From: a virus
Virus record (IMG/VR): IMGVR_UViG_3300036978_000135
Location: 1-25,826 of that record
Direction: 5' to 3' (one strand)
Length of the DNA stretch: 25,826 bases
Made by a program: the position numbers and the translations under genes. Under the pieces are notes generated by a model. That model searched no databases and was not told where the DNA came from. It worked only from the letters and a program-made list of their open reading frames with translations. Shown here in pieces: positions 276-24,566 of the stretch; positions within the stretch are counted from its first letter, which is position 1; every line of letters begins with the position of its first letter.

Positions 276-3200
276 TTAGTTGGAGCGCAGTTTCTCAAGC
301 GACTTTCTCTTGCGCTCAATTGAATCCAACAATTTTTCACGCGGAGTTTTTTGAACTTTGGATGCTGACTCGCCCAGTTCAAGCGACCGCATGACCAATC
401 GATACAGTGGATAGAACGGGATGCCGCCGTACTGAAGCGTGGCAAGTGATCCACCAACAACTGCAAACATCATGTCTGTTGTCGTTGAATCTTTTCTCAA
501 CGCATCCTTTGCTTCATTGACAACGTCTTGCGCTGGGCTACCAATCAATGGTGAGATTAAGAATCTCCTGTAAACAATTGATGACAATGCATTCGCGAAC
601 ATGATTCCCATGTATCCCATCGTGACCGACATCACATCGCCTGCTAGTTGGGTTGGCACTGATACCAGTGTGTTCTCCCACCATGACTTGTTCACTGCTT
701 TCTTTTCTTCTTCATCATCTCCAGCACCAATCATCGAAGCAAACAGACTGATGACCTTTGCTGTGACAATCGTTGACAACGAGGAGATCGTTGTACCTGA
801 CACGATATTGCCACCAACTGCAAACGCAGTGCGTGTGCGGTTACCTGATAGCACCGCTCGCCTGATCTGATTGCGAGCCTTGATTGGATCGCTTGAGAAC
901 GGGAACAGCAAACGCCATCCGGCATTGCCATCTGTCCGACTAGTCGCGGCAAAGTAGGAATCGTCAAACTCATCACTGGCATTCTGCGTCTTGCGGAAGT
1001 CACGCTCTGCACGGTTCGATGCTTCGGTTAATGCATCCGTGCCAGTCAACAACCCCTCGTCTTCAACCTCTGCAAGACGAGCCTCGACCGCAGCAAGCAT
1101 GATCTGTTCGTCAGCGTAACGAAGCATATCTACCACTGCTGACAAGCCCATTACTCCTGCGCGGTTCGCATCACGAGCAGCATCGATTGCGTCTGTAATT
1201 TTGCCAGCCGCCAAGTTGTTACCAGTTGCCCGAAGGTTGTCACGCACCGCAATTAAAGCATTGCCTAATTGCGCACGATCTGAATCACCAAGTGCTCCGC
1301 TAAAGATTGACTTCATCTGCATCTGGTGACGGCGCGAGAAGTAACCATTCACCAAATGGATCTGGTCAATGCGACCACTCCAAGTACCGGGAGTGCGAGC
1401 GTATCGAGCAGCGCGAGCAGTGCCACGTGTCCACAGCGATAGCGGTATCTCCGATGACAATCGAATTGTTCCGCCGATTAGAACCTTTGCAATCGTGCTT
1501 GGGTTCATCGCCAACTTTGCGCCAGTGACGTTGCTTGTAAGTTTGTCAATGATGCTTGGCTTGGTTCGTGATGTTGCGCCAACACCGTTACTAAAGATTG
1601 ATCGAACACCACTGGCTGTGCCTGAGCCAAGTTGATCATCAATACCCTTGACTACCTTCGGGTCGTTCAACACAGTCATCGCATCCCGATACGGCTGCGC
1701 CATATGGATCATGTCGAGAGCAACCTGCATATGCCGATCCATTGTCTGCACCATGTCGGTATAGATCAACGGCTGACTACCACCAACACGGGCATTGGCA
1801 AATCCAACAGCAGTGAGAGCACCACGAACAGCCGCACCAGCAGCAGCGGAAAGGTCTACCTTCTCTCCGCCAATGCCTTCCATATTGCGAATACGTGGGT
1901 AGTAACGAGTAACAATCGGTGGCTGATCGCCCGTCACTTCCCAGATCGCCTGCATGGCTCGATCACGGATCTGTGTTTCCAATATGTCCTTCATCCGCTC
2001 AATCAAATCACGCTGTCCAACTGTAAGGTTGGCGCGGATGTTGCGGATGTCATCGCCGGATGGGTAGAGTGTCAGGATGCTAGAGGTTTCATTGAATTGA
2101 ATACCCTGTTTGCCTGCATTGGTTCCATCAAACAACGCCAATGTCTCTTCATCCATTGCAGCAATCGACATGGCAATGCCAAGCGGGATGGTGACATCCT
2201 GACCACCCAGAGATACCGTCACTAGTTCGGTTGAGCCATCGCCATAGCCGCCGTTCTTCAAACGGTAATCATCCACACCTTCGTAGCCAGCCGCTATCAA
2301 CGCAGGTTCAAGATCGCGCATGATGCGAGCGTGTTCCAACGCAGCCTCGCCCTTGCCTTCCTGTGCAAGACGAAGCAACTCGTCAATGACCCCGTCCTCT
2401 TTACCCTCAAGTTCTAAGGACAAGGTGTAGATGTCAGAGTTAGCACGGCTGATCTTGGACAGCACCGACAAGCGAGCCGCCTGATCAGCGCGAGCGCGAG
2501 CCGCGATCACACGCCGACCCGCCATGTTTGCCATAAGCCGTTGAGTCAAATCAGCGTAACGAACAATGCGTTGATCGCGTTCCGCTATGAACTCAGCACG
2601 GTCAGTGTCATACAGCGCAACTGCATTCTCAACCTTAGTCTGCGCATCTAACACACGTGAGTACAAGTCAATGGCTCCGGATAGGGTGACTGGACTTCCC
2701 TTGGCAGTGACTACCTTTGCTTGCCGCTTGCGGTTGTTCGCATCACGCAACACCACGTTTGCTTCATACAGCAAGGTAACAATCTGTTTACGGGCAGCAA
2801 CCTTCATGCCGCGCTTGTTCAGTCGCTTGGCTGTGCGAGCAATGACCTTAAGTCCTGCCGTTGCCTCTGCATTGATGGCAATGCGCACTGCTTCAATGGC
2901 AACACGGTTCGCCTGCGCAACTGTCGTAGCAGTAGCGGCACGGTTGGCAAGTGTGCCACGCAGGTTCGCCGGGATGGACAGCAATGCTTCGGACACGATC
3001 TTGCGGATGATTCGATTGCGCTCTGCAACATCATCAAGCCGGGTGTTCATCAACTCGCGCAGGTTGAACAACTGGTTCTGCAAGGTGTCTTCACGCTTGC
3101 GCATTTTCGCAAGGATCTGTGCTCGACCCTGCATGATGCCCTGCATACGTCCCTTGTTCAGACCCATCGAGTACGCGAAGTTCACTGCGCGTTGAGCAGC

Positions 3201-6200
3201 GCGAGCGTCATTGCGGACAGTGGCTTTGAGTTCGCGAACGCGGCGGACAGAGATGTCGAGCAGCGATTCAACACGGGCAAGGCGCGTCATCTCTGGCTTC
3301 AGAGTCTGTTGCCCTGCCACCTGACCCGCAACCAGCCCCTCATTGCGACCGATCCGATACGCCCAGTCAATCGCTCGCTGGCTAGCAAACTTCTGGAACC
3401 GTTCAGACTTCTGGAGTTCCTTTAGTTTCTCTTCCGCCTGTTGACCACGCTCAAGATCAGTCTGTACCGCTTGCTGTCCTGCAACCTGACCTGCAACCAG
3501 TCCTTCGTTGCGACCAATTGCATACGCCCAGTTGATCGCACGTTGCGCAGTTGCTTCCGCATTCGCCAGCGCAGTGTTGAGTGCATCGCGTTGTTCCTTG
3601 GTAGCAGTCCGCTCTTCAGCAATCGATCTCTTGGCAGCAACAACGGCATCTCGCGTAGCCGTGATCTGCTCCTCAAGCGAAGCAATCGTTTCGGCTGCTG
3701 ACTGTTGCTCTTCAATTGCCAGTTGAGTCTGCGTTTGCAGACGAGCCTTGGCACGGTTGACCTGACCAAGCCGCTGATCAGCGAGCATAGTCATGGCATT
3801 TAGTTTGCGCTCCAGTTTGCGCACCTCGCTCAGTGCGTTGACGCGCTGCGCGGCAGTCTGTAGATCAGCAGTGCGCTTGGACTTCTCAACCGCAGCGGGT
3901 GTGCCGCCAGCGATCTGCTTCTTGAGTTTGTCGATCTTGTCTTTGAGATCAAGGATCTCATCGTAGTCAGCAACGCCAGCCTCAATGATCAGTGCTTGCT
4001 CACGTGGCGATAGATCCTTCATGACCTCTGCTTGCGCAGCACGGCGGTCTGCTTGCATTTTCTGGAATGCAACATCGCGTTCGTCTCCACGGGAGAATGA
4101 AATGTCTACGTTCGTATCGTCAAATCGCCGCGACAACGGAACAACATTTCCAGACTCGTCATATGTAATCGGGTCAGCCGATTTAATTTGTGTGGGATTT
4201 GTTACTGCGTAGTGTTTTTGTTTACCCTCATCAAGTGTTGTTTGCAATTCGCCAGATTCATCCCTAACAAATTGCCATTTAGCCTGCGGATGAATTAACA
4301 TCGAATCGTAATTGCCCAACTCTTGCAATTCAGATTCTTCACCGGGAACACCATACAGTCCTTCATTAGCACTATCTTCTATTGGATAGACAAATATGTT
4401 TCCGGGATTTAAGTAGAATCGCCGAACGGTTGGAATGCCACCATTTCTTGCCGCCTTATTTGCATACCAAACCGCATTTTGTTCTGAGGTAGTAAACCAA
4501 AAGAAACCTCTAGGGAATACGCCATCGTATTCGGCAAAGTTTTCCCCTTGTCTTAACTTTGAAAATTTCTTAAATGCAGATGCGTCTCCTCTGAATACAT
4601 CAACGTTGTAACCCGCAGCCTTTGCCTTCTCATCGACCATGCGTTGCGCTGTCTCCATATCACCGCGCTCGACAGCAGCCATGTAATCAGCATCGCGCTC
4701 GTCTTCACGGGCGAAGGATTCGTCTGGTACACGACCATCTTCCCATGTGAATGATGGCATCAAGCCAACTTTTTGATCTGCAAACGTAGTGTCTTCAACT
4801 TTCGCTGCTTTATTCTTCTCGCCAAACGGACCGAAATTTAGCCAACTATTTTGACCACGGGTTTCAGAAGTCATCGCACCAATTGCTGACCCAGTAAACA
4901 AACGGACATGGGCTTGCCATGCGTTCTCTTCTCCACGCGCACGGAATCCGGCTCCCTCAATGCTGTGTCCCATTGCATCATGCACAGCACGGAACAAATC
5001 GTTAGCCGTTACACGCTTGAGTGTTCCGTCTGGTGTTCCAAATGCCCACTGCAAACCAGTGTCTGCAAGCAAAGGATTGTTGCTGACATCAATATCTGTT
5101 GCACCGCTACCGAATCCACTCTCGCTTGGGAAGACAGCCATGCGCTTGTTGGCGCGTAAGTCTCTAACCGCGTTGTATGGATTGCCAAAGCCACCGGGCT
5201 GATCAGCATATGGATCATTCTTTTCGTCAAAGAAATAGAACTGATACCCAGCATCTACCAGCATTTGATACTGAGCAGTTGTTTGCTCAATCAATTGTTC
5301 GTATGCGTCAGCAACCGCAGGGTTCTGCGGATCATGCACCATCGTTTGATATGCATCTGCAATTCGTACTGCGCGTTCAGGATCTACGTCCGCGTATTCC
5401 GCTTGACGTTTGAAGTCAATTCCTCGCGAAGCAGCGTAGCGTTTGGCTACATCTACAATGGAGGGATCTGGTCCGGTGAATCCTTGGATGACGGGCGAAC
5501 CTGCAAGCGGCGTAAGCGTTCCAGCCGCAGGCTGTTCCACTCCGTTGCCAACTGTTCTTCGTTCATCTGATCTGGCGAAGGAGACTCCGGCTTTGTCCCA
5601 TCCGTATTTGGCAACGAACTGGTCATTGACGGCTTGGACTGCAAGACGGAGATTTCTAACTTGCCCGAGAATATCGGGTCGTTCGGCTGTAATTCTATCC
5701 AAGTATCCTTCGCCATTTTTATCCTTGCTCCAGTCGTTGCTTACATTGTTACCTTCAGATCGAAACGATGCCGATCCAACAATACCACCACCAAAGGTGT
5801 CGGGCAAGGATTGAACAATCGTTTGCCATGCATCTTTGAATTCTTTGTTTGATACGGGCTTTTGACTTTTATCAAACTGCGTAAAGTTCAATACCCGTAG
5901 TCCATCCTTGCGATAGATCGGGTTGAGATCCCATCGATTGAACTTCTCATGCAATGCACGATAGAACAACTCAATCTCTTGATGACTGAGCGCACGATTA
6001 GTCCGAAGTTCAATACCGTTATGACGGATCTTTGCATCGTCAAACACAGCAGTGTGATATGCAACCGCGTCTTGCGTTAATGCATAGCCACGAATACGGG
6101 CAGCGAGATCAAGCAGTTTGATGGCAGATGGCTTGAGTCGTTTCGCCTTACCAGACTTGTCTGTCGGAGCAGCGACAAATGACTGTATCCCTGTTTGAAC

Positions 6201-9200
6201 CTTGGATTCCCACGCGCTGACACCTTCAATGGTGTCACCTTGCGGCAACCCAACCATCTCTGCCACAATGTCTTTGCCGTTTGGAAACAACACTGGAGCC
6301 AACGCTCGTTGATATTCAAACACCTTATCAAGCGTAGCGGTATGAATCCCGGGGATCGGAGCACCACTCGTTGTACTTGGCGTTGTCTCGTAGGACTGCT
6401 GCACCATTCGATCTCGCAGCGCAGTGCTAAAGTCGAACTTGGCAGCGTTAATGTCCTTGTCTTGCAGGTCGTATTCCATGCCCATCTTGTGGGCTAGGCG
6501 AAAGTGTTCCTTCTTCTTGTCCTTCTTGACTTCGTAAACCAACGACTCTTTGCCAGTATCTGGGTCAACCTTAGTGACCATTTCGCCAATGCCAAGACGC
6601 AACTCTTCGGCTTTCAGTTGTCCACGGATTGGATCGATGCGTCCCTTCATCGCTGACCAGATCGCCGCCTGCACTTGATGCGCTGTCCAACCAAGTTCTT
6701 GCGCCAGTCGAGCCGTCTCGCGTTCAGCAAACCGATACTTGGAACCCTGATCAAGAACCTTATCGCCGTAATCAAACGCAATAGCCATCCACATATCCAT
6801 CGTGGATACGTTCGTGTCCAACTTCGATGGGTCAATCTCGACCATCAGGTTCTGATAGAACGAGTTCGTCTTGATGCCACTCCACGCCTGCCCATTCTTG
6901 AGCAACGCGGTTGCCTTCTCATCAGCCTTGCTGAATCCGGCATTGATGTCCAGCCCAGCCTTGAACTGGTAGTACGCAGTCAATGCCATCGTGGTGTTGG
7001 CAGACACAGTTGCGTTGGGTGAATAGATTGCAATCAGGCTAACGATCTTCTCAGCCTCAACCTTGTCACCGCCAGTCATCTCAAGGATGGCGCGGCTTGA
7101 ATCCTCGTACCAGTACCGACCAGCCTCGCCTTCCTTTGCCAGTTTGCGCAGTTTGAAACGCAGTTTGGCGAGTTGCGCAGGGCTGTTGCCAACCCAATCC
7201 GGCGCACCAACGTACCGACCGCTCTCCTTCTCGCGCTTGTGAGCGACCCGATCCATCTTGGGCTTGGCTGCGACTGGGGCGGCGGGAGGTGAGATAGGCT
7301 CAGACAGTTCCCGATCAGCCGTTGGAATGTCACGGGCAAAGTCAACGTCCATGTCCGATGCCCACATCAGCGTCCGCGCCAGTGGGGACAGAGTCGCATC
7401 GCCAGTCCTACCACTAACCGCCTCGACCGCCGCCGACCGGGCGACCCGGTCAACCACCGCCATCGCCGCCAACGACTCCCGACCCATCAGTCCGCTACGT
7501 GCCGCCAGTCGCGTCAGGCTGCTCATAGCACCCTTTGCCTTGATGCCTGCCATCGCACGGGCAAAGGCATTTGCCTCGCCCTCCTGAGAGATTCTGGCGG
7601 CTCCAGCACGGGCAGTGTTGGGCGAGATGTCAGAGGTTTTACCCTCCAACGTATCCGCCACGTTCTCCATCTGCGCGAATGCCGCCTCGTCCTGCCGCTC
7701 AATCGCGGCTGTCTCCGCGCCCCCGCGAGACACGTATTCCAGTGCCGCGTCATAGACAGGCAGCAACCCAGCCTTGTCCACGAACGCCTGAGCAATGTCA
7801 GGGCGGAACATCTGAATATCATGGAACGCTTCTTCCAGTGCGACAGCCCGGACGCGCTGCTGATTGGAAGCAGCGTTCAGGTAGATCACCCCGGGTGTGC
7901 GCCGACTATGGAAGCCGGGATTGGAAGACTTCTTGTCAGCAGGCGTGTACCACACGACCTGAGTGCCAAGAGCCTCCATCTCATTGGCGATTTTTTTCCC
8001 CCAACGTGGAGCCTTCGTCTCGTTCAGTGCCACGCCACTGCGTGTACCAACGGACGCAAGCACTTCGACTGGTGTAGACCGCACCACCGTAGCAGGCATA
8101 TCGGAGATTTTCTCCGCGACCGCGCCGTGCTCCGCAGTTGCAATCATGTGATCGGTATTTGCAAGTACCAGTTGTTCATCAAGTTGCTTTGCCTTGTCCT
8201 GCAACACCAGCAAAGCAAATTCAGCCTCGTAGATATCTTGGTCAGCAGTTGGGCTGGCTGTCCCGGCAGCAGCCTTTGCCTTGTCGAGCACTTCCTGTGC
8301 GCCCGTCATGGCAACGTCTACTTCTTGCCGATCTGCAAGCGTTCCTTCGGCATTCGCAATGATCTCTGCCTTACGGTCAGCAAGAGCCATCACGTATTCG
8401 CCGCGCTCGTCAGGAGTCATTCCCTCAATGGTGTCAAGTTTCGCGGCAATACGGTCGCGCTGTGTTTGTTCTAGACCTTCGCTCCAGTTGGAGCGAGCCT
8501 TCATTGCATCGGAGTGGGTCTGTCGGACGATGCGCTCGCGGTCAGTCTCCGGACGAAATGCATCGTTGCGGTTAACAACAGCCTCGCGCACAGCCAAACC
8601 CCCGCTAGAAGCAGCACCGCTAGCACCACCAGAAACGGAAGCCACCGCCATACTGTAAAGAGCGTCATTGACATCCTGACCTAACGGTGCGTAAGTGAAA
8701 GGTGCATTTGCTATGCCAGCAAACAGTTCTTCGCCTGCTTCTTCAAAACCAGAAATGCCAGCAACCTGAGCACCTCGATAGATGAATCCCGGAGTGAAGT
8801 TCATCACGCCTTCATTAGCAGCATTGAATAATCTACCAGCAGTAGAATTACTACGGCGGACAACCTCTGTTGCCGCCTTCACCGCGCCAGTCTTAGCAAA
8901 CTTATTCGTTGCATATCTAGCAGCCGATGATGTACCAAGTCCTTTGGCAACTTTACCAATAAACTTTGCGCCAAACGCAGCACCACCCGCTTCAGCAGTA
9001 GTTTCAATGATTGCGCCGACTTCAGCGCGATTGCCCATTTCAACTGGATCAAACTCCGAAAGCGTTTCGCCTGCTAATGCTTGGTCGTAACGCCGCTGCT
9101 CAAGGTCATCAATGTAAGCCAATTGGCTATTGGTGTACGATGACATTGGAGTAGTAACTTGTGATGCCAACATCATTGGCAACAACGATCCTCCAGTAGC

Positions 9201-9842
9201 AAGGGTTCCAGCCGTAACAGCAAGTGACGGCAACGACTGACCAATGCCACGTGATACGTCTCCGGCAAATCCTTCTTGTTGACCCTGAGCCAAACCTTGT
9301 TGTGTTCCTCTAAGCGCAATGATCTCAGATTGCAAGTCTTGTGGACTTGCAGTCAGACCTGATCCTTTTGGCTCAAAGACCATTGATAATTTCTGAGACG
9401 CTTCACGCTTTGCCAAATTGCGAATGGCGATTTCAAATTCACTTTGAGGTGGACTCAACCAATCAGCAATTGCAAAGTACGGCTTCATCAGCGACTGCAT
9501 GAATTCCGCTCGCAATGCTGGCGTTGCAACAACCGAAGCAGCCTGACTCATCTGCTGCTGCGATCCACGCGCAACCTCACGTAAGTTCAAACCAGCCCAT
9601 GATGTGTCGGGCATTATGGTTTCAAACTTGTTTGACTCAGCCGCTGATGCAATGAGATCCTGATCAGCGGTCGAAGACCCCGGCGCGGTATCCTCACTAC
9701 TCATCAATGCATATGACTTCTCAAGTGCTTGACCCAGATAATCGGTGATATCAACACCGTCACTAGGCGGTGTTGGCGCAGCAGAAATTGGCTTTGCTAA
9801 AATGCTCGACCAATCATCAAGGGTTTGTTGTAATGAAGTCAT
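276..9842 (-). CDS. Giant polyvalent internal virion/ejection protein (3188 aa)
   Basis: Position after the small internal-protein genes, size and a hydrophobic C-terminus fit the gp16-like core protein that enters the host with the DNA; this role is inferred. Regions in order: hydrophobic stretch about 198-232; helical part to about 640; a zincin-like segment with E670-E671-x-x-H674 where HExxH is expected; 880-1060 with RYWYED (909-914), SPN (941-943) and a T-M-D site (D1016), resembling phage DUF7178-type/HhH-GPD-like proteins; 1450-1690 with H1621-D-x-x-G-H1626, H1645 and E1660-T-R-G-Q-N-S-W; 1740-1915 ADP-ribosyltransferase-like (VFRGD 1749-1753, WFTTS 1782-1786, NPTQIKSA from 1882); coiled coil 1925-2500 with three repeats; C-terminal region with FPF (2980-2982) and hydrophobic stretches about 3005-3105, like the end of large polyvalent proteins. 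An FxRxDER motif sits at 1420, 1708 and 1913, with a degenerate copy at 832. ATG directly follows the previous stop (TAAATG), so translation is probably coupled. T7 gp16 is about 1318 aa. No N4-type RNA polymerase motif was recognised. Confidence 0.9.
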   Translation of the reverse strand: MTSLQQTLDDWSSILAKPISAAPTPPSDGVDITDYLGQALEKSYALMSSEDTAPGSSTADQDLIASAAESNKFETIMPDTSWAGLNLREVARGSQQQMSQAASVVATPALRAEFMQSLMKPYFAIADWLSPPQSEFEIAIRNLAKREASQKLSMVFEPKGSGLTASPQDLQSEIIALRGTQQGLAQGQQEGFAGDVSRGIGQSLPSLAVTAGTLATGGSLLPMMLASQVTTPMSSYTNSQLAYIDDLEQRRYDQALAGETLSEFDPVEMGNRAEVGAIIETTAEAGGAAFGAKFIGKVAKGLGTSSAARYATNKFAKTGAVKAATEVVRRSNSTAGRLFNAANEGVMNFTPGFIYRGAQVAGISGFEEAGEELFAGIANAPFTYAPLGQDVNDALYSMAVASVSGGASGAASSGGLAVREAVVNRNDAFRPETDRERIVRQTHSDAMKARSNWSEGLEQTQRDRIAAKLDTIEGMTPDERGEYVMALADRKAEIIANAEGTLADRQEVDVAMTGAQEVLDKAKAAAGTASPTADQDIYEAEFALLVLQDKAKQLDEQLVLANTDHMIATAEHGAVAEKISDMPATVVRSTPVEVLASVGTRSGVALNETKAPRWGKKIANEMEALGTQVVWYTPADKKSSNPGFHSRRTPGVIYLNAASNQQRVRAVALEEAFHDIQMFRPDIAQAFVDKAGLLPVYDAALEYVSRGGAETAAIERQDEAAFAQMENVADTLEGKTSDISPNTARAGAARISQEGEANAFARAMAGIKAKGAMSSLTRLAARSGLMGRESLAAMAVVDRVARSAAVEAVSGRTGDATLSPLARTLMWASDMDVDFARDIPTADRELSEPISPPAAPVAAKPKMDRVAHKREKESGRYVGAPDWVGNSPAQLAKLRFKLRKLAKEGEAGRYWYEDSSRAILEMTGGDKVEAEKIVSLIAIYSPNATVSANTTMALTAYYQFKAGLDINAGFSKADEKATALLKNGQAWSGIKTNSFYQNLMVEIDPSKLDTNVSTMDMWMAIAFDYGDKVLDQGSKYRFAERETARLAQELGWTAHQVQAAIWSAMKGRIDPIRGQLKAEELRLGIGEMVTKVDPDTGKESLVYEVKKDKKKEHFRLAHKMGMEYDLQDKDINAAKFDFSTALRDRMVQQSYETTPSTTSGAPIPGIHTATLDKVFEYQRALAPVLFPNGKDIVAEMVGLPQGDTIEGVSAWESKVQTGIQSFVAAPTDKSGKAKRLKPSAIKLLDLAARIRGYALTQDAVAYHTAVFDDAKIRHNGIELRTNRALSHQEIELFYRALHEKFNRWDLNPIYRKDGLRVLNFTQFDKSQKPVSNKEFKDAWQTIVQSLPDTFGGGIVGSASFRSEGNNVSNDWSKDKNGEGYLDRITAERPDILGQVRNLRLAVQAVNDQFVAKYGWDKAGVSFARSDERRTVGNGVEQPAAGTLTPLAGSPVIQGFTGPDPSIVDVAKRYAASRGIDFKRQAEYADVDPERAVRIADAYQTMVHDPQNPAVADAYEQLIEQTTAQYQMLVDAGYQFYFFDEKNDPYADQPGGFGNPYNAVRDLRANKRMAVFPSESGFGSGATDIDVSNNPLLADTGLQWAFGTPDGTLKRVTANDLFRAVHDAMGHSIEGAGFRARGEENAWQAHVRLFTGSAIGAMTSETRGQNSWLNFGPFGEKNKAAKVEDTTFADQKVGLMPSFTWEDGRVPDESFAREDERDADYMAAVERGDMETAQRMVDEKAKAAGYNVDVFRGDASAFKKFSKLRQGENFAEYDGVFPRGFFWFTTSEQNAVWYANKAARNGGIPTVRRFYLNPGNIFVYPIEDSANEGLYGVPGEESELQELGNYDSMLIHPQAKWQFVRDESGELQTTLDEGKQKHYAVTNPTQIKSADPITYDESGNVVPLSRRFDDTNVDISFSRGDERDVAFQKMQADRRAAQAEVMKDLSPREQALIIEAGVADYDEILDLKDKIDKLKKQIAGGTPAAVEKSKRTADLQTAAQRVNALSEVRKLERKLNAMTMLADQRLGQVNRAKARLQTQTQLAIEEQQSAAETIASLEEQITATRDAVVAAKRSIAEERTATKEQRDALNTALANAEATAQRAINWAYAIGRNEGLVAGQVAGQQAVQTDLERGQQAEEKLKELQKSERFQKFASQRAIDWAYRIGRNEGLVAGQVAGQQTLKPEMTRLARVESLLDISVRRVRELKATVRNDARAAQRAVNFAYSMGLNKGRMQGIMQGRAQILAKMRKREDTLQNQLFNLRELMNTRLDDVAERNRIIRKIVSEALLSIPANLRGTLANRAATATTVAQANRVAIEAVRIAINAEATAGLKVIARTAKRLNKRGMKVAARKQIVTLLYEANVVLRDANNRKRQAKVVTAKGSPVTLSGAIDLYSRVLDAQTKVENAVALYDTDRAEFIAERDQRIVRYADLTQRLMANMAGRRVIAARARADQAARLSVLSKISRANSDIYTLSLELEGKEDGVIDELLRLAQEGKGEAALEHARIMRDLEPALIAAGYEGVDDYRLKNGGYGDGSTELVTVSLGGQDVTIPLGIAMSIAAMDEETLALFDGTNAGKQGIQFNETSSILTLYPSGDDIRNIRANLTVGQRDLIERMKDILETQIRDRAMQAIWEVTGDQPPIVTRYYPRIRNMEGIGGEKVDLSAAAGAAVRGALTAVGFANARVGGSQPLIYTDMVQTMDRHMQVALDMIHMAQPYRDAMTVLNDPKVVKGIDDQLGSGTASGVRSIFSNGVGATSRTKPSIIDKLTSNVTGAKLAMNPSTIAKVLIGGTIRLSSEIPLSLWTRGTARAARYARTPGTWSGRIDQIHLVNGYFSRRHQMQMKSIFSGALGDSDRAQLGNALIAVRDNLRATGNNLAAGKITDAIDAARDANRAGVMGLSAVVDMLRYADEQIMLAAVEARLAEVEDEGLLTGTDALTEASNRAERDFRKTQNASDEFDDSYFAATSRTDGNAGWRLLFPFSSDPIKARNQIRRAVLSGNRTRTAFAVGGNIVSGTTISSLSTIVTAKVISLFASMIGAGDDEEEKKAVNKSWWENTLVSVPTQLAGDVMSVTMGYMGIMFANALSSIVYRRFLISPLIGSPAQDVVNEAKDALRKDSTTTDMMFAVVGGSLATLQYGGIPFYPLYRLVMRSLELGESASKVQKTPREKLLDSIERKRKSLEKLRSN
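3117..3197 (-). repeat. Third, diverged copy of the WAY-GRNEG coding repeat
   Basis: Residues about 2216-2242 of the giant protein read A-Q-R-A-V-N-F-A-Y-S-M-G-L-N-K-G and then a G-x-x-Q-G series. This aligns with the two closer copies at 3306-3380 and 3471-3545. Similarity is clear in protein but weak in DNA. Confidence 0.6.
3306..3380 (-). repeat. Second copy of the 75-bp coding repeat
   Basis: This encodes Q2155-R-A-I-D-W-A-Y-R-I-G-R-N-E-G followed by LVAGQVAGQQ. It matches the copy at 3471-3545 over 75 bases without gaps and with scattered, mostly synonymous differences. The offset is 165 bp, exactly 55 codons, so the reading frame is kept. Confidence 0.85.
3471..3545 (-). repeat. First copy of the 75-bp coding repeat
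   Basis: This encodes Q2100-R-A-I-N-W-A-Y-A-I-G-R-N-E-G followed by LVAGQVAGQQ, inside the long coiled-coil region of the giant protein. Its partner lies 165 bp further along the gene. In-frame tandem duplication of a helical unit is the simplest explanation. Confidence 0.85.
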
Positions 9843-17810: not shown

Positions 17811-20204
17811 TTATGCGCTTGCGAGAAGTATTTGGATGATCTCATGCGCCATGACGGTGTAACCGTCTGAAGTGTCTTTAGTACTTGGCGCAGTGGCAAT
17901 ACCGCCGGACAAATGAACGGTAGTGTCCGTGGTCTGGTAATACGAACGACCATTTCCTACCCCGACAATAGCGCGGGTGTATGGCATGAATTTATTTACA
18001 TCAAGGACCGTCATATCCGGCTGCGAGATTGCAAGAGAATTTGCCGCTGCACGAACGGCAGTTAGGTTCCCACCAGTTCCGTTGTTGCTATTGTCCACAG
18101 CACCTTTTGCAACACCAACAAAGGACACAATGGCAAGATCATTGGCTGGATAGCCGAGTGCTGCCCACACTGCTTTATAGGTGTTCCAGATAGAGAAATG
18201 AGATGATGTCCAATCGGAGGCTGTTTCGTTGCCGTTGATTCCGCTGTGGCTAATGATTAAGACGCGACCGGATGAAGTAGCACTTGCCGCAAGTTGCCGT
18301 TCGCGGAGTTCTTGAAGGTGCAGTTGAAGTGTTGGTCCAATGGTAGTAGCCACTTGGTTAACCATTAGGCTGTCGTACCCGGCTAGATAACCGTGACTTG
18401 TTACAGACCAACCCTTGCGTTTGCAATAGATACTGTTTCCGTGAAGTGCAGCAGGTCCGACCGTTCCACGGCTTCCAGCAACAGTTCCGCCTGCAAGTGG
18501 TCCGGCTTCAATTTGATCTCCTACAACTGGTGTACTAGGCGTAAACGAATATTCCGACACTTGGAAACTATTGGCGTTTCCTGTGTTTGTGTTTATCACA
18601 GAAGAGGTTGCTAATGTTACATTGGTTGTACCGTTGTACTTGCGTGTAGCAGGACGGAAATAACCGCTACCTGTATTGAAGGTTCCCCATCGAACACGAT
18701 GCCAAAGAGTCAATGATGGGTCATAAAGCGGATGCGAAATAGTCATATATACATTTGGATACCAATTCCAATATTCGGCTCCGTTGATGTACACCCACGA
18801 GTCCTTTGCTGGGGATTTAGCGGTTGCACTTCCATAACGAGTCCACGGGCAAGTCTGAATTGTGTGTGTTCCGCTTCCCGCGCTGCTGGTATTAATGGCT
18901 GTTCCAGTAGGACTTAATGCAAGCGTGAATGTATCGGGCGTGAGAACGGAGTTGACAAAGTAGGTGTAGCCTGTATTTGAAACATTAAATACTGCGCCTA
19001 CAGCACCACTGCTGGCTGTAGTAGTAACCGCAGCCCCGTTACGGGTGGCAGACAACTGGAATGTAGTTGATGTGCTACCAGCGGCAATGATGTAGTAAGT
19101 AGTTGGGTTTGAGTAGCCGCTAATGTCGCCGCTGGTGAATGTTCCAGAAATCGTTACTGGTTGTCCAATAGCAAGCACTTGGCTTACCGCCGTGCAAGTA
19201 AAGTTTCCACCACTAAGAACAGCAATCCCTGTTATGGTGGCTGACAATCCCGCAGGAAGCAATCCGGTTGTGTCAAGGAAGACCGGAGCACCAGCCGTCA
19301 AGCCGTGTCCCGTGTAGGTCACAACACCCGGACTTGCGTTAGAGATCGTGACGGTTGTAACACCTTTGCCGGGAGTCCACGCTGAATAGGCGGTTGATCC
19401 GCCGCTGATGTTTCCGTTAAACAATGTCCCAGACGGTTGCTTAACGTACGCCGTAGAATTCCACCCGCCTGTGTTGGTGTCTACTAGCCAATCGGTCATC
19501 AGATGCGAATAGTGTGTTCCGTAGCACAACCATCCCAATTCAAACATCGCTTGGCTGAAGCCGTTGTGGTAACCCCACATACCAGCCTGCGATGATCCGG
19601 TGTTGCTGTCGCCAATGATGACTATGTCAAGGCTATCAGTTCCATCCGCTAGGTCGCTAAAGAACTGACTAGCGCGTGAACTGCCGTATACCACCGGACC
19701 GTCATTTGATTCACTTGCATTGAACGAATATTCCTGTGGAATATAAACACGCTTGATTGCAGTGCCATCAGCAACCGCCGCATTGTCCATCAAAGTCACT
19801 GAATATCCCGATGCAGTAACACCGTTTGTCAGAACACCAGCAGTAGTCGATACGCCAAGAAGCGTCCCTGAACCAACGGTAGCGTTGACCAATACCTTTG
19901 CTTGGCAAATGCCGCCGAACTGCACCTCCACCTCGCGACCATTGCCACCCGCTCCAGACATCAGACCAGTGACTACGCCAAGGTAGCCAGTGTTTCCAGT
20001 CTCTGTGGACACCGCCTTGCGAACGCAATTGAATACATAAGACGTATTCCCAGCCTGCTCTGGGTTAACAACCGCGCCAGCGTGGATGAACGAGGTAATG
20101 ACAAGATCGCCAATAGCGAGCGTTCCGCCAGACTTGTTTACGCAGGTGACAGTTGTTCCTACTGGTTGAACGCCAAGACGATTTTGAATCGGTGCAAATG
20201 TCAT
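17811..20204 (-). CDS. Tail/head-associated SGNH hydrolase with decoration-like N-terminus (797 aa)
   Basis: A TTG at 20210 extends the frame by two codons; ATG at 20204 has AGGA about eight bases upstream and is preferred. Residues 1 to about 163 are homologous to the stand-alone 167-residue protein at 22737-23240 (shared VITSFIH, YVFNCV, GYLGVV, VQFGG). Then an SGNH/GDSL hydrolase: block I G198-D-S200-N (Ser200 likely nucleophile), a G-I-N-G-N segment at 655-659 as block III, and H764 in TTDTTVHLSGG as the catalytic His. The nearest Asp (760) is four residues before His, not three as in the usual DxxH. About 170 residues of beta modules (roughly 282-451) interrupt the hydrolase. SGNH domains in tail proteins typically deacetylate or de-esterify surface polysaccharide; substrate unknown. 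Confidence 0.85.
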   Translation of the reverse strand: MTFAPIQNRLGVQPVGTTVTCVNKSGGTLAIGDLVITSFIHAGAVVNPEQAGNTSYVFNCVRKAVSTETGNTGYLGVVTGLMSGAGGNGREVEVQFGGICQAKVLVNATVGSGTLLGVSTTAGVLTNGVTASGYSVTLMDNAAVADGTAIKRVYIPQEYSFNASESNDGPVVYGSSRASQFFSDLADGTDSLDIVIIGDSNTGSSQAGMWGYHNGFSQAMFELGWLCYGTHYSHLMTDWLVDTNTGGWNSTAYVKQPSGTLFNGNISGGSTAYSAWTPGKGVTTVTISNASPGVVTYTGHGLTAGAPVFLDTTGLLPAGLSATITGIAVLSGGNFTCTAVSQVLAIGQPVTISGTFTSGDISGYSNPTTYYIIAAGSTSTTFQLSATRNGAAVTTTASSGAVGAVFNVSNTGYTYFVNSVLTPDTFTLALSPTGTAINTSSAGSGTHTIQTCPWTRYGSATAKSPAKDSWVYINGAEYWNWYPNVYMTISHPLYDPSLTLWHRVRWGTFNTGSGYFRPATRKYNGTTNVTLATSSVINTNTGNANSFQVSEYSFTPSTPVVGDQIEAGPLAGGTVAGSRGTVGPAALHGNSIYCKRKGWSVTSHGYLAGYDSLMVNQVATTIGPTLQLHLQELRERQLAASATSSGRVLIISHSGINGNETASDWTSSHFSIWNTYKAVWAALGYPANDLAIVSFVGVAKGAVDNSNNGTGGNLTAVRAAANSLAISQPDMTVLDVNKFMPYTRAIVGVGNGRSYYQTTDTTVHLSGGIATAPSTKDTSDGYTVMAHEIIQILLASA

Positions 20205-20206
20205 AG

Positions 20207-21424
20207 TCAAGATCCTGTATAAGTTTGAAGTTCAATGTCTGAAAGAAGTCGTGGATAGAACACCACGGAATGGACACCGTTATTGAGGTGACCTTCAAAG
20301 TCGCTAATCCCCGTAATCGAGTCAGTGCCAATATTCATCCAACCAATCGTTGATGGACTGACATTAGATGTACCACTTGTTACCGTCCCGCCATTCGTAC
20401 ACATTCGGATCGCAGCGTTAGAAGATCCGTTAATAGTAAACGCTGTGCAGTTGCGCGAACTAGTCAGTGACGTTGCTGTTATAGAACCAGTTGTCCAAGC
20501 CAAAGTACTTGTCGCAGATCCATTCGCGTGTTTCAAGTGAAGGTGCTTAGTTGCCGCTACGTCAAACGCAAGCACTGATCGATCACCAGCACCAATCGCT
20601 CCACGGAAGTATTTGACAACAAACGTACCGGGCTGTCTAAACCATGAAGTGAAATTCGTTCCACTCATTGTCAATCGATCATCACCACGGGTGTCAGGCG
20701 TAAGTGTGACGGGAACATATGAAGAGGCAGCGGTCCCGTCTTCTAGTTGTGCTCCCCAAATCTCAATTGAATTTGTGTTATCAACAATACGAAAAGAAAG
20801 TTTGGCTTGAGCAGAACCCGTAGTTCCTTGATATCGAACCCAATCATTGGTGACAGTAACAGATGAATATGCCGGAGTAACAGCAGTAGAAACTTGAATG
20901 TTCCCAGTACCACTCACCCGGCGAATCCATGCAGACCATGTACGTATTGCTGAAGTAGACGTAGTTAATCCATGCGTAATGGTTGCATTCCCAGCACTCG
21001 CAGTAAAGCGAACAGCGTTCGTAGTTCCGTCCGGCGAGACTTGACCAGTGGCTCTGGTGATATTTACGTCAGTCCACTGAAAGTCTCCGCCAACAGTAGA
21101 GAACGTTTGGCTATGCGTGAGAAGATTGGTAACAGCAGCCTCGATCAATACACCCTTGGACACATAGGTAGATCCAATGAGTTCGTAAGTGAATCGAGGT
21201 TCTCCACTAGCAACGTAACCGACCAAACCGTTTGACCGAATGAATGTCGCTGCTCCAGCACGGGCAAAGGTTAAGCCATAGGCAGAAAGATTAACCTTGC
21301 CACCCATCGTGTTGAAATCAAACTTCCTTGTGCCAACCGTTTGACCATCAAGAGACAGCGTTCGATTGCGTTCTTGGCGCAATGTCGGAGGGGCAATAGA
21401 CCATGTTCGATTTGATGACATCAT
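20207..21424 (-). CDS. Structural protein with two jelly-roll (LamG-like) domains, fibre or head fibre (405 aa)
   Basis: Residues about 32-240 match a common phage pattern: a Tyr-Gly-L-T-F-x-R-A-G segment, GVLIEAAVTNLLTHSQTF, then a W-A-S-W-type jelly roll (ITRATGQVSPDGTTNAVRF, TWSAWIRR) ending IEIWGAQLEDG. A second jelly roll spans about 265-400 (FVVKYFRGAIGAGDRS ... GHLNNGVHSVVFYPRLLSD). Such concanavalin-like folds bind carbohydrate or stabilise fibre trimers. The gene starts directly at the previous stop (TAAATG) with no strong ribosome site, so coupling is likely. Whether the protein sits on the tail or on the capsid cannot be told from sequence. Confidence 0.8.
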   Translation of the reverse strand: MMSSNRTWSIAPPTLRQERNRTLSLDGQTVGTRKFDFNTMGGKVNLSAYGLTFARAGAATFIRSNGLVGYVASGEPRFTYELIGSTYVSKGVLIEAAVTNLLTHSQTFSTVGGDFQWTDVNITRATGQVSPDGTTNAVRFTASAGNATITHGLTTSTSAIRTWSAWIRRVSGTGNIQVSTAVTPAYSSVTVTNDWVRYQGTTGSAQAKLSFRIVDNTNSIEIWGAQLEDGTAASSYVPVTLTPDTRGDDRLTMSGTNFTSWFRQPGTFVVKYFRGAIGAGDRSVLAFDVAATKHLHLKHANGSATSTLAWTTGSITATSLTSSRNCTAFTINGSSNAAIRMCTNGGTVTSGTSNVSPSTIGWMNIGTDSITGISDFEGHLNNGVHSVVFYPRLLSDIELQTYTGS

Positions 21425-21958: not shown

Positions 21959-22684
21959 TTATGATGGGCTTGGGACGGTGTTTGTCATTACAAACCCGCC
22001 GTTGTTTCGATAGTTGTTTGTCCAAACGTTTGGTCGCAACTGTCCAAAGTGGGCTTGCAGCATCCCGTCCTTGCGCTGTGCAGTACCAAACAGTGTTCCA
22101 GCCTCAATCTCCGCAAGACGCTGCGACTGCTGCCCATCTTCATACGACTCAGTGATCGCACGAACGTAGAGAACGAGCAGAGCCTCTAGATAGAGTGGGA
22201 TTGAGATGACATCCATAGCCAAATTAGCAGTCGATACACGCTGCCAGCCAGTGCGATATGTGATCTTGATCTTGTTTGTCTCCGAACTAGTCGGAGTTGG
22301 ATAGATTTGCAACTGATACGACTGTGTAGGAATCGCAGTCGTAGGCACAATAGCCTTCACGTACCCTCGCGTACCGTGACTGTTGAAGTCAGACGAGCGG
22401 GTGTTCTCTACCTCGTCCTGATTGGTGATCAAGAGCGGCAGTGTTCCACTCCACGCGGCAATCAGTTCAGAGAAGTCAGTAGGCAGCGACACATATGACT
22501 GGGATACAACCGTTGACAGCAGCGCGGTGGCTTGCCTGAACGTCCACTGGTAGCCAAACAGATGCTCACCAGCCTGATTGATAATCTCAGCCTGTCGTTC
22601 TGCGACAGTCTGACCAGCGGCAGTCGATGGGCGACCACCAATGGCAAGCAACACATGGTTTGTCAGGTCTTTGTAGTAAAGCAT
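21959..22684 (-). CDS. Head-tail adaptor, tail tubular protein A (gp11)-like (241 aa)
   Basis: The helical N-terminus (YYKDLTNHVLLAIGG, QTVAERQAEIINQAGEHLFG) followed by YVSLPTDFSEL, a beta core (SYQLQIYPTP) and a long helix (LEALLVLYVRAITESYEDG) is the pattern of podovirus adaptors that form a ring under the portal. Length is near T7 gp11 (196 aa). A perfect 12-bp hairpin ends six bases before the ATG and contains the only possible ribosome-site bases (GTGGA), so expression may be limited by that structure or depend on its opening. Unlike in T7, the nozzle gene is not next to it. Confidence 0.85.
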   Translation of the reverse strand: MLYYKDLTNHVLLAIGGRPSTAAGQTVAERQAEIINQAGEHLFGYQWTFRQATALLSTVVSQSYVSLPTDFSELIAAWSGTLPLLITNQDEVENTRSSDFNSHGTRGYVKAIVPTTAIPTQSYQLQIYPTPTSSETNKIKITYRTGWQRVSTANLAMDVISIPLYLEALLVLYVRAITESYEDGQQSQRLAEIEAGTLFGTAQRKDGMLQAHFGQLRPNVWTNNYRNNGGFVMTNTVPSPS

Positions 22685-23291: not shown

Positions 23292-24566
23292 TTAGACAGC
23301 GATAGGGGCAACGATTCCGTGACGCTGACGGCTGTTGCAGAACACGTTCCACCAGCAGTCAACAGGCTGAACCCAAGTGAACGGCTGATTTGGGTGACGC
23401 ATGACATCATGCTTCTTCATGTAGCGAGTTGAGTGATAGATAGGCGTGATGTACTGACCGTTGACGAACCAGAATCGAGCACCCTTATCAATGGTGTTCA
23501 ATGCAAATTCACTTGCGTTAGCAACAACGGCTTGACCATCACGACCAGCCTTGCTATCTGTTACCGGTGAACCAGCAGCAATAGCAGGATAAATCGCAGC
23601 CGTATCCATGTTGGCACAGTATTCAACAGGAATACCACTAAAGGTTGGCGTGTTGTACGCCGAATCCTGTGCGCTTACAAGCACATCATTTGATGCACGA
23701 AGTGTTCGCTTGTAGAGGTTCATTCCCTCCTTTGAGCACAAGATCATCTGGCGATTGAAGTTCGTCTCTTCAAAGTACTGCTTCTGAGTCAGAGGCGACT
23801 TGAACTGCACCTTCAAGTACATATCGTCAAATGCACCAAACAGACTATAAACAGATCGTGCAATCGATGCGTTTGCGTTATGACCCGTGTATGTCAGGTT
23901 GGTCGTAGGACCAGTGTTAATTGCCGCAGCCCTGTTGTAGAACGAAATCTGATTCGACCAACGTGGATCAGTTGCTGGGTTAATACCCAAGATATTCGGA
24001 GCACTTGACTGTGTTGCAAGCCATGCCGAACCACCACGCTCACCAAAGGTGAGATCAGTGTTGACGGTTTCCGTGATGAATGCAGGAAGCGAGTACGGCT
24101 CCTTGCCACCAGTTTCCATGTTGCCATAGTTATTGAAGGCTGATGCCCACAGATCGTTTTCCATGCCGTTGAGCATGGAAGTCCACATACGCATTTCCTT
24201 GATGCGCTTCACGCGCTTGTACATGACCTTGGCATCGCCTTCGTTCAGTTCGATTTCCTGATCGGTCCACGACATATGGTCCATGCTGAAACGCCAAGGA
24301 GCGGTCAGCGTGTCGGTCACCTGTGGGTTGCGCCAAGTGAACACTTCATTCGGCTCATACTTCTGGTAGGTGGACGAATCGTCAAAGACGATGACATCCT
24401 TGATGGAAGTACCACCCTGAACAGTCGTTTCGCTTGCCTTCTCCTTGAGGAGACGCGAGAGAACGTAGTTGTTCTTGACGGCTTCGTTGATAACGGCATC
24501 GGCACTCTTCAGATAAGAAGGTCCGGTTGACTGCATGAAGTCATTGAATTGATTGATATTAGGCAT
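23292..24566 (-). CDS. Major capsid protein (424 aa)
   Basis: Position after the scaffold gene, length, and a C-terminal segment of the type common in podovirus capsid proteins (FVNGQYITPIYHSTRYMKKH, then HPNQPFTWVQPVDCWW) support the call. The N-terminal half has a long charged helix region (ELNEGDAKVMYKRVKRIKEM) like the spine helix of HK97-fold subunits, preceded by a beta strand pair (TLTAPWRFSMDHMSWTD). No delta-domain protease cleavage site was recognised, in line with a separate scaffold. The ribosome site AAAGGA overlaps the scaffold stop codon (TTAAAGGA). A strong hairpin follows the gene, so this is probably the most highly expressed transcript segment. Confidence 0.92.
   Translation of the reverse strand: MPNINQFNDFMQSTGPSYLKSADAVINEAVKNNYVLSRLLKEKASETTVQGGTSIKDVIVFDDSSTYQKYEPNEVFTWRNPQVTDTLTAPWRFSMDHMSWTDQEIELNEGDAKVMYKRVKRIKEMRMWTSMLNGMENDLWASAFNNYGNMETGGKEPYSLPAFITETVNTDLTFGERGGSAWLATQSSAPNILGINPATDPRWSNQISFYNRAAAINTGPTTNLTYTGHNANASIARSVYSLFGAFDDMYLKVQFKSPLTQKQYFEETNFNRQMILCSKEGMNLYKRTLRASNDVLVSAQDSAYNTPTFSGIPVEYCANMDTAAIYPAIAAGSPVTDSKAGRDGQAVVANASEFALNTIDKGARFWFVNGQYITPIYHSTRYMKKHDVMRHPNQPFTWVQPVDCWWNVFCNSRQRHGIVAPIAV

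Follow-up and report, generated by a model that had tools for sequence, protein, structure and literature searches.

How one β module has come to lie within another, inside a phage hydrolase, is the question raised by a 25.8-kb IMG/VR virus record, which was analyzed as one stretch of 25,826 nucleotides (the window). The record belongs to the tailed phages, since it encodes an SU10-type adaptor (21959-22684, minus strand, Pfam), a major head protein (23292-24566, minus strand, phrog_9953) and a tail protein (20207-21424, minus strand, phrog_5939). A 3188-aa ORF occupies positions 276-9842 of the same strand. The host protein of the modules, P0001 (797 aa; translated from 17811..20204, minus strand), consists of an N-terminal domain and an SGNH-type hydrolase that carries the nested arm.

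The host protein and its hydrolase

The N-terminal domain of P0001 (residues about 1-151; 19752-20204, minus strand) is joined to different partners in other phages and, judged from sequence comparison, appears to be a swappable anchor. Copies up to 80% identical are found in L013-L026 and L030, and the rest of those proteins is a different hydrolase or unmatched. Weaker relatives of the domain occur as stand-alone ORFs within the same loci.

SGNH hydrolases are recognized by a Ser in a GDS motif, a Gly, an Asn and a His, distributed across four blocks. All four residues are present in P0001, with Ser200, Gly655, Asn657 and His764 invariant in 32/32 aligned sequences, the window among them. 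Ser200 (19605..19607) is part of a GDSN sequence in which D199-S200-N201 is equally invariant; Asn657 and His764 map to 18234..18236 and 17913..17915 (all minus strand). We take these three residues to represent SGNH blocks I, III type and V type, respectively. Asp760 is present in 19 of the 32 sequences. The hydrolase has no Pfam match, and its SGNH label thus rests on the motifs.

Two insertions, one inside the other

The first-pass annotation had placed two similar β units between Ser200 and His764, and the translation confirms them there, with both catalytic residues at exactly the positions given. The motif pattern described for the two units is indeed common to both. The translation reads VTISNASPGVV... 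from residue 285 (position 19352), AIGQPV at residue 345, NVSNTGYTYF at residue 407 and SGTHT up to residue 448 (18861). The first half of the outer module (P, residues 285-321; 19242..19352, minus strand) aligns to the first half of an uninterrupted outer module in SGNH relatives, and its second half (Q, residues 411-450; 18855..18974, minus strand) aligns to AGTTYYV...SGTHTIQ of relatives that contain the outer module only. The inner module (residues about 322-410; 18975..19241, minus strand) is missing from these outer-only relatives, in which its site reads GLS-AGTTYY. It starts ATITGIAVLSGGNFTC, with limits set by comparison with the outer-only proteins, and is divided by sequence into an N-half (residues 322-362; 19119..19241) and a C-half (residues 363-410; 18975..19118), giving the HMM architecture PNCQ. 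The inner unit is found where it had been reported, but it is longer than reported.

We gathered relatives by a search with the whole protein (best 80 of 176) and a search with the hydrolase alignment (40/40). Further searches contributed the best 80 of 277, 485, 522 and 357 relatives, and 21/21 in another; all counts of relatives are drawn from these best-scoring samples. Homologues lacking the inner module and homologues lacking both modules, which the first-pass annotation had proposed to look for, were both found. No module is present in the SGNH homologues L332, L027, L031, L032, L028, L337, L338 and L350-L353. The closest of them, L332, shares 62% identity in the hydrolase core, and its site reads WTPGT-AWTRYGT without interruption. 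Ten sampled homologues contain an outer module only, of about 80 aa (L002, L005, L007, L009-L012, L015, L019 and L333). Two proteins, the window protein and that of L001, have both modules, the outer one being interrupted after GLS by about 89 residues that precede its TYY strand. Hydrolases without any module and hydrolases split by the outer module alone thus coexist, with continuous flanks. The nesting itself is well supported, and the reported order of a domain in a domain in a domain, as well as its origin by repeated insertion, is borne out by relatives in each state. The natural empty sites indicate that a surface loop between WTPG and W-x-RYGS of the hydrolase took up a small β module, and that another member of the same superfamily then entered this outer module, at the loop that leads into its TYY strand.

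Inner-type modules are also found at other hydrolase loops (L003, L033, L341, L344, L347 and L361), located 8 residues downstream in the protein, close to FRVRYG, or behind the loop of the catalytic His. A second inner-type module lies near the hydrolase end in L003 (6131-6400) and also in L033, L341, L344 and L361; that of L003 directly follows the catalytic HLSGG loop. In L037, L038, L040 and others, the TFNLATSAT strand of an outer-type module leads straight into an inner module, and INTSSAGSG-like outer residues resume beyond it. A second acceptor loop probably lies at this place.

Traced on the hydrolase-core tree, the outer arm requires 4 changes between presence and absence (mean of 9.8 for shuffled labels, with 0/2000 at 4 or fewer). 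These change counts indicate that the outer arm has been gained, lost or exchanged. The inner nest requires 2 changes, because the window and L001 are not sisters on the tree; the nested arm may therefore have been transferred as a whole, or it may have been lost more than once. Loss instead of gain may lie behind the distribution of the arm.

We modeled the arm with AF2 from an alignment of 70 rows (A5). Besides the window and L001, it contained seven pieces of outer first halves and 61 inner modules, each cut short ahead of its last strand (6/67 were skipped by the trimming rule). The outer second half was represented by two rows, and three redundant first-half rows were omitted. A single-sequence AlphaFold model of whole P0001 had a mean pLDDT of 32 and was discarded. 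The structural check proposed in the first-pass annotation succeeded for the inner unit, which alone folds confidently (pLDDT about 86-95), and fell short for the outer halves, which are modeled poorly (about 50-59, below 60). The low confidence of the outer halves would fit an absence of true nesting, with one continuous, irregular β domain or a linear stalk of look-alike strand repeats, and phages do carry many β-rich repeats of simple composition. We nevertheless regard this explanation as unlikely: the flanks are intact in outer-only and module-free relatives, the inner unit alone is modeled as a compact unit, and all 12 closed deep nests described below are balanced. A single continuous domain without internal repetition, the outcome that would have spoken against the original claim, was not seen in the model.

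Relationship, fold and possible role of the modules

The family profiles of outer and inner units align with each other over 51 columns (hhalign E 1.3e-6, probability 90.7%). The outer unit of the outer-only protein L015 matches the inner unit of the window with a local score of 83, which was reached by 1/5000 shuffles, whereas 43 other stretches of 93 aa from that protein scored 38 at best. In addition, MAFFT repeatedly placed outer-only rows onto the inner unit, a misplacement that is itself a sign of homology. Inserted and host domain thus belong to the same superfamily by profile comparison, by shuffling and by the occurrence of nests of N-halves within N-halves. Their homology and shared motif order would also fit an in-place duplication, in which one copy of the outer module ended up inside the other. 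The inner unit of the window, however, scores 213 against its best match among inner-type modules of other phage proteins and 83 against the outer unit, and inner-type modules stand alone in many proteins. We disfavor such a duplication as highly improbable: since the inner unit is closer to modules of other proteins, its source was a larger family of modules, from which it was inserted. Outer and inner units are homologous members of one superfamily, but no recent copies of each other, and the description of the inner unit as a copy of the outer has to be abandoned in favor of a different subfamily.

Among virion genes of IMG/VR, the inner module (about 84 aa) is common; its hosts are hub proteins (phrog_3287 match), head-closure proteins (phrog_578 match), hydrolases and unknowns. 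For the outer module, the common hosts are major tail proteins and fibers, including those of cultured Rhizobium, Sinorhizobium, Leptospira and Microbacterium phages. The term fiber module used in the first-pass annotation is hence too narrow, as modules of this kind also reside in hub, head-closure and tail-tube proteins. The inner module was not found as a family in Pfam, NCBIfam or PHROGs. An inner query returned no match among cultured phages and plasmids, to which a low-complexity filter may contribute, and the family profiles, compared with PDB sequences, had no match or matches at chance level. The sole inner-module match in the genome-contig search is L240 (LFWW01000045.1), assigned to an MCG-6 archaeon MAG; this contig is perhaps a binned virus contig.

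The same module occurs in many hosts and loops and nests repeatedly, as might be expected of a dedicated mobile DNA element that inserts it in frame. The one junction that we read at the DNA level has no obvious target duplication, and near-identical copies within one locus were not found, the best of 39 pairs reaching 82% nucleotide identity. A dedicated element is thus very unlikely, and the modules can be called mobile, as had been proposed, in the sense of domain shuffling only. At the DNA level, genes that carry modules would have recombined in frame, by illegitimate or homologous recombination.

We compared the fold of the module with known structures. VIA-align of the inner unit gave E1 FCCH (5um6) as best match (Z 7.3, rmsd 2.9, 82 aligned), with the caveat that a Z under 8 may reflect a common arrangement; the top rows are mostly E1 enzymes, followed closely by phage head-to-tail and tail-tube chains. 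Foldseek found no match to the window model in the PDB at E ≤0.001, with a weak similarity to an endosialidase barrel (PDB 4hiz, E 0.16). Against predicted viral proteins, it returned 7 matches at E ≤0.001, including uncultured phage proteins and a cyanophage tail fiber. The outer-type module of L250 is weakly similar to phi92 endosialidase (phmmer E 0.012). The endosialidase barrel PF12195 (gathering 35 bits) is unmatched in the window and reaches 19.9 bits at best, on L250; E1_FCCH PF16190 (gathering 29.5 bits) is likewise unmatched in the window and reaches 12.5 bits in Leptospira phage LE3. Fold comparison of the model thus weakly favors the FCCH barrel of ubiquitin-activating E1, which differs in its biology, and sequence weakly favors the barrel of phage endosialidases, a small barrel in a glycan-degrading phage enzyme. 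The phage modules remain below the Pfam cut-offs for both barrels, and we know of no nesting in phage endosialidase barrels.

Given this weak similarity, the arm would present binding barrels, probably for host-surface glycans, beside the hydrolase, much as phage endosialidases use their β-barrel. We consider it likely that a virion-type SGNH hydrolase took up a module of the wider family and then a second one nested inside the first, lengthening a presumably glycan-facing arm by loop insertion. The weakest step, drawn by analogy, is to read the arm as an extension that would face glycans, mounted on an esterase that would act on capsule or lipopolysaccharide. The main rival on function is a passive spacer that lengthens or stiffens the mount of the enzyme and binds nothing, a reading that we hold to be less probable but a serious contender. 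It would account for modules in hosts as unrelated as hub, head-closure, tail-tube and hydrolase proteins, and two chain crossings per joint may make for a stiffer rod than a tandem string. On the other side stand the inner-type module of L003, next to its catalytic loop, and the nearest characterized barrel, that of endosialidases, which binds substrate: K1F endosialidase binds polysialic acid at three sites, and the barrel is one of them (PMC12632334).

Deep nests and known recursive insertions

To follow nesting in other proteins, the inner family was split into N-half and C-half HMMs, with P and Q denoting the outer halves. With a cut-off of 10 bits, the first half-module HMMs overlooked a divergent N-half in several deep ORFs, whose strings came out unbalanced; after iteration and with a cut-off of 8 bits, the strings were balanced, for example NNNNNNNCCCCCCNCC. 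Nests were counted after dropping duplicates and contained fragments. In the sampled virion hub proteins, closed nests reach depths of 6 or 7; 12 distinct ones were counted, and 12/12 are perfectly balanced, with the N-halves first and the matching C-halves last. The sample as a whole holds 5 closed nests of depth 7, one of them in an ORF cut downstream by a contig end, 7 of depth 6 and one of depth 3 (L455). Depths 2 (several) and 3 (one) were found in proteins other than those with the deep hub nests. Among the shallower arrangements are N(NC)(NC)C in L077 and L408, N(NC)C in L144, P(PQ)(PQ)Q in L244 and L245, and P(NC)Q in L001 and the window. The hub protein L097 contains a second outer-with-inner nest, read by eye as PNCQ where the half-module HMMs score NCCPQ, and an uninterrupted relative of its module is present in L133. 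A nest in L364 is cut by the contig end. L250 is unbalanced as scored (PPQPQPQ) and ambiguous; its last P (11 bits) looks like a resumed outer loop. Starts are regularly spaced (median of 37 aa for N-N and 50 aa for C-C). No module is found in 54 of 101 distinct hub-family ORFs sampled, where the empty site reads ATATGS-ITATFDNN; a nest of some 700 aa occupies the same place in others.

By alignment, the acceptor loop of the outer module matches the loop at which the inner family self-nests in other phage proteins. The arm would grow from inside outward, as each new unit enters a loop of the previous one, and each level would be one domain composed of an early and a late half, with two chain crossings to the next level. 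This model of growth and pairing in deep nests is strongly supported by their perfect balance. Similarity between levels of the N- and C-arms also agrees with nested pairing (r 0.49, P 0.016 at depth 7; r 0.69, P 0.003 at depth 6) over sequential pairing (r -0.28 and 0.04, respectively); significance is lost when the two most canonical levels are left out (P 0.16 and 0.24). The extra level of the depth-7 nests falls at levels 4-5 (once level 2) of the N-arm and levels 3-5 of the C-arm; the two arms agree within one level in 19/28 comparisons, often at adjacent, non-identical levels.

Surviving relatives have module depths of 0, 1, 2, 3, 6 and 7, which makes several questions testable: how a chain folds whose domain halves lie hundreds of residues apart, whether double linkage of domains gives stiffer stalks and how balanced nests grow without breaking reading frame or pairing. 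Among the decoration domains of phage tail tubes and fibers, Ig-like and others, a terminal or tandem position is usual. They resemble the modules described here in being interchangeable β domains across virion proteins, and outer-type modules indeed occur in major tail proteins, but the modules described here interrupt loops, and also one another. Our literature search, with subscription journals largely outside its coverage, found no earlier report of self-nested phage modules. Domain insertions mostly have a single level. The deepest nest to which a 2026 survey draws attention, as an example of complex organization among 48,551 insertion events, has six levels and belongs to one cellular enzyme (PMC13114784). 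This is Si3 of the cyanobacterial RNA polymerase β-prime subunit, in which domains of one family (HABAS/SBHM) are recursively nested (PMC13114784, PMC11515920, PMC10802570). Same-family nesting of such depth is very rare among known proteins. Si3 and the phage modules share the recursive insertion of one-family domains into each other. Si3 differs in having another fold, in being confined to a single cellular enzyme and in being described as partly domain-swapped, whereas the phage modules occupy several host proteins, with regular spacing, up to seven levels and surviving intermediates. On balance we favor the view that a phage self-nesting module builds virion arms from inside, each copy being taken up at one loop, into balanced nests of up to seven levels in which every level is a two-half domain with two chain crossings, and that it would represent an invention separate from Si3, going deeper than six levels in several virion proteins whose intermediates survive.
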